Origin: Fragilariopsis cylindrus CCMP1102
Taxonomy: Eukaryota > Bacillariophyta > Bacillariophyceae > Bacillariales > Bacillariaceae
Length of the DNA stretch: 64,000 nucleotides
Reading direction: 5' to 3'
NCBI GenBank assembly: GCA_900095095.1
Contig: FMBT01000439.1
Location: forward strand, 1-64,000
Below are positions 61,047 through 63,882 of this stretch, one piece after another (positions within the stretch are counted from its first letter, which is position 1; every line of letters begins with the position of its first letter). A program made the position numbers and the translations under genes. The notes below the pieces were generated by a model. The model saw only the letters and a program-made list of their open reading frames with translations, was not told the DNA's origin and searched no databases.

Positions 61047-63882
61047 TTACATTTCAGTGCCATCGTCACGAAGTGAATCAGCTGGGGGAATATTTACACT
61101 ATCGAGCTCCTTGTTACAATTTGCTAGGTAGCCTGAATCAGGGTATCCATGGGCAGTAACGCCTCCATTCAGAGACGTCTTATGGTGGATGTTAGACCAA
61201 GTACACTTATTTGCAATCCCTGTCGTCAAGGACATCCCCACAGTGAACGTAAGACCACGCAAAAAGGCATATTTTAATCTCTTGAGAAGCTTTTCCCCTT
61301 CCGTATTGCCAGGAATATAGGCCGTTGTCCGTTTTCCACTGTGAGATTGTCCTGGATTTTCATGGTAACTTTTTTGCGTGCCACTTTTCATTGAATATGT
61401 TACAACAATGGTAGAGTCAAAATCAAACCCAGAACAGCAAAGACTACTACTGTACGACACAGACATGGATCCGGATGGTGACTTTCCTTGTGGCTTTCCA
61501 ATTTCTTTCCTGCAGATCGGACATTGACTCTTTACTTCGAAAGCGTGTTCGACGCAACTTCGACGGAAGACATGGTTACAAACGGCAAGAATTACACAGG
61601 GATCAGGCCGTAATACTTCTTGACAAATTGGACATTCATCATCTACTTTAAATAACGACGTCTCAAAACCAGTGCATCCAAAGGCACACCTGCAGTAACA
61701 GTTTTAGGAGCTCGATACAAAATCGGTAATGAGTTGAACGTCACACTTATATTAGGTCTGTTGTTGATAACTTGGCGTGCTTGTATTAGACGTTGTTGAG
61801 ATTGTTGTTGTTGTTGCTGCTGCTGTTGTTGCACGGTAGCATTACTTCTTCCAACGTTCGATACGTTCGACGGTGCACTTGTAGCAGCAGCAGTAGCAGT
61901 AGCAGTAGCAGTAGTAGTGGCAGCAGCAGCAGCAGCAGTAGTAGTGGCAGCAGCAGCAGCAGCAGCAGCATTAGCATTAGCATTAACAGCATTAGCAGTA
62001 GCTGTAACACTAGTGTTAGGAGCTTGGTACAAAATGGGTAACGAGCTAGACAACGCCGCATTTGTAGTAGCACTTTTGTTAGTAGCTTGGCGTGCTCGTA
62101 GTAGACGCTGTTGATATTGTTGCTGTTGTTGCTGCTGTCTTCGCTGTAGTTGCTGATGCTTGTTGGGAGTAGATCGAGTTTGTTGGAGATGAAGTCCCGC
62201 AGTGATAGCATCCGCAAAGGGTATGTAGTAAAAGGATGTCGAAGGTTTACTAGCACTACTATTGTCAATGCGTGCGACATAGATCTCCCTTAGTGTTGCC
62301 GCCCTCGATTGTGAAAGCATCTTCGCAATGGCCGTAGAAAAGTATCGCGATTTGTCCCCAACAATGATTCCCATCGGTGCTTGCTGATATCCTTTGTTGA
62401 ATAGGCCATCAAGTATACTTTGCAAGGAGGATTCAAATTGTTGTATGCATTTCCTCCCCTTCGACGTCTTAATCAACGTTTTACTATATTTGACTAACGG
62501 TAATACTTGCGATGAAGAACGTAGTACAACCTCGTGATTATAATCATTTGTTGGCCAACCGTCGTCATTAAAATCTTCGTCTTGTATCATAGCCTCAGTA
62601 ATCTTATCTCCACAAATAGACTTTACATCTTCATCTACATGGAAGTTGTGAACTTTAAGAGCGAACGGGACTCGGACATTTGTACCCTGAAGTCGAGCGA
62701 CGATCAACCCTACAGCTCCATAGCCACTACACGCTATTGGATTGTTAGCAGTATATATCCCATCTCCAAAAGCTGACCCATGCTTTTTGAGAACTTGAAT
62801 GTTTTGATGAGCTCTTTCATTTTTTGTCAACAACCCATTTTCACAGATCTTTTCGGTATTCTCAATAGAAGTATAGTGATAACCTAAATCAACGTAAGCG
62901 GGAATATTTCTATTTACAAAATCTTGTTGTTGTCCAAGCAAACGTTCTGCTAGATAAACCATATCATCAACAGAAACTTCATTGATATCATCTGCATACA
63001 TTGGAAATTTCTCCTTAAGGTCTTGAACTAATTTGATGATGGACTGTACCGCCAACACTGCTTTTCCACTTTTATTGTCGGCCATCGCCTTCTCTTCTTT
63101 CTGAATTTCTTGCTTTGATTGTTCTTCTTCTTCGTTCTGAAGTTTTTGTGCTAATGTCATATCAGATTCTATAGTACTTTGTGTCTGTCGCTCTTCGAAA
63201 CGTTGTCTCTTTCTTCCATTATTGGTGCCATCCGATCTAGGAATTGCGCTTGATAGCGTAGGTTTCGCCGTTGGTTTTCGATCTTCATCTTCATCCAAAT
63301 CTTTGTCGGATCGGAGTCGTCGTCGATTTCAATTACCTCCGCCTTTTGAGTCGGAGTCTTCGAAGCAGTTGCAGCTTTCGTCGTCCAATCTAATATGGAT
63401 TGTGCGGCGTTCGTCGTCCAATCCAATATGGATTGTGAAGGAAGATTTTGAGCCAGTGACTGAGCTTGAGCTTGAGTCTTCGGAGCAGTTGCAAGTTTCA
63501 CATTTTCTTTCAATTCTTCTTGAGGAGCCATCTTCCTATTTCTTTCGATTTTCTTCCTCTTCTTTGGTCGTGTATTATTATCACGGCTATTGTCGTCGTC
63601 GTCGTCGTTGCCGTCGTCCGATCTTTGAATAACCTGATTTTTTGCGTTATGCTGTTGGATTGTTGCCTTATCTCGTTTCCCGAATTCTTGCCCATTTTCT
63701 CTGGTCTGTACCAGTCGTTCTTTCTTGGTGAGCTTACGATTTGGCGATGCACTCTCTTCTTTCCTGATGAGACTACGATCCGGTTTCGTCGCTTCTTTTC
63801 TGGTTACCTTTCCTCTCTTCGGTTCTGATTTAGTCATCGCCGCCGCAATGGCTTCAGCCTTCTGGTTTCTAGTTTGCACCAT
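61047..63882 (-). CDS. PARP-like ADP-ribosyltransferase fused to Deltex RING-DTC ubiquitin ligase
   Basis: About 940 residues when read across two one-base breaks near 63300 and 61680 (both T runs). Residues 1-195 are basic and disordered (RPKKRKKIERN, a possible nuclear signal). The PARP-type catalytic fold follows: His in DLGYHYTS (about 62878), Tyr in GDGIYTANN (about 62755) and Glu in NHEVVLRSSSQVLP (about 62533), with the same Glu-to-Gln spacing as PARP1. A Gln/Ala-rich linker leads to a RING finger (CPICQEVL to CPICRKE, 61634-61512) and a Deltex C-terminal domain (NPGQSHSGKRTTAYIPGNTE, FTVGMSLTTG, WSNIHHKTS, HGYPDSGYL). The DTC fold binds ADP-ribose in animal Deltex proteins, so coupled ADP-ribosylation and ubiquitylation is inferred. 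The fifth RING zinc ligand is Arg (CNHVFRRSC). Confidence 0.82.
61795..62135 (-). repeat. Poly-Gln/poly-Ala coding microsatellites
   Basis: Runs of CAA/CAG and of GCA/GCT-type triplets encode the linker between the ADP-ribosyltransferase and RING domains of the fusion protein. A similar phrase occurs twice (SLPILYQAP and SLPILYRAP), hinting at an internal duplication of linker sequence. Confidence 0.8.

Follow-up and report, generated by a model that had tools for sequence, protein, structure and literature searches.

Human Deltex ligases ubiquitylate ADP-ribose that is supplied by a separate transferase protein. Their modules, formed by a RING finger and a Deltex C-terminal (DTC) domain, put ubiquitin on the 3'-hydroxyl of ADP-ribose, and in DTX2 this requires His582 and Glu608, according to the accessible part of PMC7615817. 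In humans, PARP9 and DTX3L are made as two distinct polypeptides, and the available text of PMC12687431 reports that the reaction is not catalysed by PARP9. As far as the accessible portions of two PARP surveys go (PMC2964712, PMC4245714), no PARP was listed for the diatoms then sequenced, Phaeodactylum tricornutum and Thalassiosira pseudonana being among the genomes searched, and the later result was at least two in T. oceanica. Moreover, the available part of a 2025 study reports that Deltex-family genes are raised during sex in four diatoms, including Skeletonema marinoi (PMC12618581). Here we analysed a 64,000-nucleotide window of Fragilariopsis cylindrus CCMP1102 (contig FMBT01000439.1, positions 1 to 64,000; C59 of the 818 contigs, 67,884,144 bases, of the genome searched). 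One gene of this window carries, from N- to C-terminus, a low-complexity region, a PARP-type ADP-ribosyltransferase (ART), a Gln/Ala-rich linker, a RING finger and a DTC domain. It is spread over three overlapping open reading frames (ORFs; 63894–63169, 63328–61643 and 61703–61047), and its features are the following:

61047..63882, minus strand: whole gene, the two frame breaks included, from the ATG at 63882 to a stop ending at 61047.
63169..63894, minus strand: ORF1, the N-terminus (MVQTRNQ...), lysine-rich and of low complexity, without a match in the Pfam scan.
63306..63315, minus strand: first frame break, a 5-base unit present twice in tandem in the DNA, at a place where P0068 is open.
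62381..63085, minus strand: PARP-fold ART with its helical N-terminal part; the 235-amino-acid segment that was modelled.
62876..62878, minus strand: ART triad His (GYHYT), invariant in the 17 rows of alignment A2.
62753..62755, minus strand: ART triad Tyr (GDGIYT), invariant in the same 17 rows.
62531..62533, minus strand: ART triad Glu (NHEVVL), a Glu in the window.
61790..62160, minus strand: Gln/Ala-rich linker, limits approximate.
61665..61668, minus strand: second frame break, a short T run (an A run on the plus strand), at a place where P0114 is open.
61509..61640, minus strand: RING finger, zf-RING_2 (Pfam 37 bits, cut-off 27.3).
61563..61565, minus strand: fifth zinc ligand of the RING, replaced here by Arg.
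61098..61490, minus strand: DTC domain (Pfam 139 bits, cut-off 25).

We are close to certain that a one-chain fusion of a PARP-fold ART with a Deltex RING-DTC module is real and widespread at the family level. With one profile for the ART and another for RING-DTC we searched 115 sequences, consisting of 112 database proteins, the same-genome paralogue C90 and two ORFs of the window; 30 further database proteins, found later, lie outside this count. The ART profile matched 107 sequences and the RING-DTC profile 83, and both matched within one protein in 75 cases (74 of the 112 database proteins, and C90). These counts did not change at E <= 1e-5, and 74 double matches were left at 1e-10. As a control for a profile built from the same proteins, a second profile made from 22 ART seeds without RING-DTC gave 107 ART matches, 74 of them with RING-DTC. 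The ART lies N-terminal to RING-DTC in all 75 fused proteins. In C90, a single open frame of 418 amino acids takes in the ART from just ahead of its His motif, the RING and the DTC, the helical part upstream of the ART being in another frame, and a single open frame is also present in P0072, P0075 and P0083. The joining of the two halves in one protein, as put forward by the sequence-only reading, is borne out by the C90 frame, by the 75 sequences with both halves and by the predicted fold. That reading had placed a single-chain version in a diatom; the diatom fusion stands, and it is a large family, with 75 fused members, and not the oddity of a single diatom.

Most database matches come without an organism name. 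The seven fused proteins that have one (P0019, P0050, P0075, P0081, P0083, P0084 and P0086) are all from diatoms by taxonomy, the taxa being Thalassiosira, Mayamaea, Skeletonema and Bacillariaceae, in keeping with the diatom host of the earlier reading. P0075, with the genus taxid of Thalassiosira, bears a name code that we take to be that of the marine eukaryote transcriptome project (MMETSP), and this name suggests that the one-chain form exists at the transcript level in Thalassiosira. One named non-diatom match was noticed, Branchiostoma P0063, with a macrodomain, RING and DTC and no ART match. At the locus of C90 (L022, C90:515500-523500), the ART-RING-DTC frame covers about 2999–4255 on the minus strand; a Phe-Gly-rich, nucleoporin-like N-terminal stretch (about 4450–5250) precedes this ART, which lacks the Glu, and compared with P0001 the reading frame also seems to be broken within a T run that lies upstream of the His motif of the ART.

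The predicted ART fold is PARP-like but divergent. Its AlphaFold2 model (pLDDT, the model's confidence score, 90.6) has structural matches to PARP15, PARP10, the tankyrases and PARP1, so the structure check of the central domain did not refute the ADP-ribosyltransferase fold proposed earlier. Across the aligned parts, the window ART is 12 to 16% identical to PARP15/PARP10 among the matches listed. In the predicted structure the strand bearing the triad Glu is succeeded by a further strand, as in PARP1. The window ART has the complete His-Tyr-Glu set, as do 65 of the 107 ART matches. A comparison of the ART profile with two other PARP-like loci of the genome was weak (probability 0.8 and 19.2). 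Two PARP-like loci elsewhere in the genome, L026 (C139) and L027 (C78), carry His and Tyr motifs (WHGT...GVYFA and YHGT...GVYLS). When one conserved ART pattern was searched for, it matched 22 times in bacterial/archaeal contigs and 5 times in viral ones, none of the matches being a relative; with a single pattern, this is weak evidence of absence.

The C-terminal half is read in the third frame, where the RING finger lies directly N-terminal to the DTC domain. The window DTC matches 3pg6 (DTX3L) at E = 1.7e-32. By alignment, DTX2 His582 corresponds to the first His of IHHKT and DTX2 Glu608 to the Glu of NKELD, and both are in the window DTC; the DTX2 numbering follows the 390-622 construct and the alignment, with the catalytic residues taken from the accessible part of PMC7615817. 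A loss of the catalytic Glu from the window DTC was considered and rejected, as the residue matching DTX2 Glu608 sits in a later helix and is conserved. Among the fused proteins, His-Tyr-Glu is present in 43 of 75, Cys or His at all eight RING ligand positions in 69, both DTC His and Glu in 52 and all three residue sets in 33; these are lower bounds, since gaps were scored as losses. A YxAP motif is found upstream of the RING in 90% or more of the rows of alignment A3 (49 rows), and in the linker of the window gene a short LPILYxAP motif is present twice on the minus strand (61699–61729 and 62011–62041). Other DTC genes of the genome form contig pairs with near-equal scores that look allelic (L003 and L004 on C60 and C803; L005 and L006 on C166 and C562); on C60 the order is DTC-RING-DTC, and no ART was seen by eye in the C166 frame.

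Taking these results together, we favour, with some reserve, the reading that this locus is one member of a family, here seen in diatoms, whose proteins carry in one chain a divergent PARP-fold ART and a RING-DTC module, which together would form an ADP-ribose-then-ubiquitin writer. In the proposed mechanism, the ART would use NAD+ to put ADP-ribose on a substrate or on its own chain. The DTC pocket, tethered by the flexible linker, could then bind that ADP-ribose while the RING would recruit a ubiquitin-loaded E2. Ubiquitin would finally be moved to the 3'-hydroxyl of ADP-ribose to give an ADP-ribosyl-ubiquitin mark. For the chemistry of ADP-ribose ubiquitylation we rely on published work with human Deltex proteins, and by this analogy we infer that the diatom proteins may perform both steps, and in cis; the mechanism is plausible as a putative activity of the family.

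A number of observations weigh against this reading. At the level of the fold, the matches listed by Foldseek have modest TM-scores (normalised by query length, 0.37 to 0.43; root-mean-square deviations, 4.4 to 16.4), the Pfam PARP score (PF00644) is 19.0 bits in the second frame and 21.2 for the isolated domain, below the gathering cut-off of 26.7, and a 17-sequence ART profile found no PARP chain among the PDB sequences at E <= 10, its top match being DarT1 (E = 0.026). The fold is thus claimed from the structure model together with sub-threshold Pfam matches, the PDB profile search having given no PARP and the profile comparison being weak, and since the domain falls below the Pfam cut-off we call it a divergent PARP-fold ART, outside any named PARP clade. 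In the family, the full His-Tyr-Glu set is absent or unaligned in 32 of the 75 fused proteins, and the DTC His and Glu in 23. Also, in 32 of the 107 ART matches the protein carries no RING-DTC; some are fragments, others are long, for instance P0108. As for the window gene itself, it has two frame breaks and lacks a RING zinc ligand as assembled, and its close relatives are split: P0068 ends within the Gln run and P0069 just ahead of it, P0070 (82% identical) continues into another tail, and P0113 begins at the RING. With the window copy broken and the close ORFs split, the one-chain unity of this very orthologue is drawn from relatives. P0069 and P0113 may be separate ORFs of one contig, the longest contig listed for each having 2344 bases. 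Among ART proteins with other tails (P0064, P0065 and P0108), P0064 and P0065 have PF02135 in place of a RING-DTC match, and the ART is thus joined to other modules too.

The frame breaks were compared with these relatives. P0068, which is 96% identical across the ART segment and has an N-terminus of the same kind as ORF1 in frame with the ART, reads in one frame from the N-terminus through the ART and crosses the first break. P0114, a sister sequence with 87% identity, crosses the second in a frame that is open from linker to DTC. Introns at the two joins were rejected, because P0068 reads through the first and P0114, P0072 and C90 through the second. It had been proposed that the gene is crossed by two one-base breaks at T runs; the second indeed lies at a T run, whereas the first is the 5-base tandem repeat, and against P0114, the closest read-through relative, the second is not a difference of a single base.

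At the fifth RING ligand position, 79 of the 83 RING-DTC matches have a residue, which is His in 76, Cys in two and Arg in the window alone, so that not all eight zinc ligands are kept there. P0113 shares 202 of 204 residues with the window frame, and its residue at this place is His. We therefore assign the family to the Deltex type and regard the window copy as one of its members, damaged or misassembled. The near-identity of P0113 suggests that this copy is decaying or that the assembly is wrong; it looks impaired or misassembled, and as written it would not be expected to give a working protein. It is quite possible, short of probable, that this gene or allele is decaying or already dead, and that the breaks and the lost ligand are real mutations. 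This would account for the two breaks and the Arg, and agrees with the absence of a second allele of the gene in the assembly and with P0114, which keeps the fifth-ligand His but has lost a Cys of the RING and the IHHKT motif's first His; the halves found as separate ORFs in close sequences (P0068, P0069, P0113) could also mean that the second break is real. Against decay stand the His of P0113, the open frame of P0068 across the first break, and the chaperone genes of the same assembly. In these, matches that adjoin or overlap but fall in different frames, leaving no space for an intron, were found on two of the 13 contigs with HSP70 matches (C693, C70) and on three of the 15 with chaperonin matches (C655, C347, C451); the pairs were chosen by eye and their frames then checked. 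Such breaks point to assembly indels, pseudogenes being also possible, and they make misassembly plausible and assembly error a fair alternative to decay. The same five contigs call for caution in any pseudogene call made in this assembly.

The writer mechanism proposed for the family would also be cut short if the ART were a pseudo-enzyme, or a sensor of NAD+ or ADP-ribose as in PARP9, and RING-DTC the sole catalytic part, which we regard as unlikely. His-Tyr-Glu is retained in the window and in the 43 fused members mentioned above, and the Glu strand is followed by a second strand in the model, as in PARP1; both argue against a dead ART. The earlier reading had gone further in predicting an active transferase from the retained Glu; the Glu is there, but it is not proof of activity. 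What fits a pseudo-enzyme is that the 32 fused members without, or not aligning, the full triad include C90, with Ser in the Glu column, and that an ART tree of 104 rows shows 10 or more changes of the Glu state (the 107 matches minus three without a residue at that column). Human PARP9 itself is reported not to catalyse the reaction, according to the available text of PMC12687431. Finally, two separate genes lying side by side, the fusion being mere neighbourhood, are very improbable: the halves are in different frames in the window, close database ORFs of the halves are separate (P0068, P0069, P0113) and a more distant relative is apparently split inside the ART (P0071, P0115; longest contig 2691 bases each), but C90, P0072, P0075 and P0083 each have a single open frame, in P0114 and P0115 RING-DTC is in frame with the linker or the ART C-terminus, and the 75 one-chain members already contradict the idea at the family level.

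The fusion of ART and RING-DTC is genuine and widespread, apparently undescribed, and built from known kinds of enzymes. Among the matches listed from the open-access literature, as far as their accessible text goes, we found no description of a PARP-Deltex single chain, subscription papers and supplements being outside this scope. A naturally fused protein of this kind would let the two-step reaction be tested with one recombinant chain, and it would show that evolution brought the two halves together outside animals. A wider claim, to which we give even chances, is that diatoms have a large unannotated family of one-chain ADP-ribose-ubiquitin writers, with a Deltex module capping in cis the ADP-ribose installed by an ART that profile surveys missed, a possible sexual role, and reader or ligase-only paralogues arising by Glu loss. 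If profile-based surveys missed the ART, some diatoms once listed without PARPs may have this system, and the fusion thus bears on the accessible reports of PARP-less diatoms (PMC2964712, PMC4245714). If the wider claim is true, the system would possibly serve in sexual reproduction, a process with raised Deltex-family genes in four diatom species, and repeated loss of the ART Glu would yield parallel reader or ligase-only paralogues. The fusion is a candidate mechanism for the Deltex genes raised in diatom sex in the available part of PMC12618581. S. marinoi has a fused His-Tyr-Glu member, P0083, which may or may not be one of the sex-raised Deltex genes.

When the diatom fusion is compared with known systems, its ART differs from the mono-ADP-ribosyltransferases PARP15 and PARP10 by low identity, by a Pfam PARP score below the cut-off and by the C-terminal RING-DTC. 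The SidE-type phosphoribosyl-ubiquitin ligases of Legionella bring the two kinds of chemistry together in a single chain. In these ligases, ADP-ribosyltransferase chemistry is also tied to ubiquitin conjugation, with modification of ubiquitin Arg42 and a phosphodiesterase step, as described in the accessible text of PMC12687431. DTX1, DTX2 and DTX3L have a C-terminal RING followed by DTC, as here, and the residues matching DTX2 His582 and Glu608 are shared. At the N-terminus, the available parts of the sources give WWE domains for human DTX1, 2 and 4 (PMC12687431) and the D1-D3 regions for DTX3L (PMC10955461), whereas the diatom fusion has an ART instead. PARP9 carries macrodomains and, according to the accessible text of PMC12687431, does not catalyse the reaction, whereas His-Tyr-Glu is intact in the window ART; scanning the three window frames with Pfam at E <= 1 detected no macrodomain, and a search for macrodomains in the genome returned four short matches. 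Human PARP9/DTX3L, and PARP14/PARP9/DTX3L, likewise combine a PARP-type ART fold with a Deltex RING-DTC and tie ADP-ribose to ubiquitin signalling; in humans these are two or three polypeptides, whereas one chain carries both halves in the 75 sequences described here.
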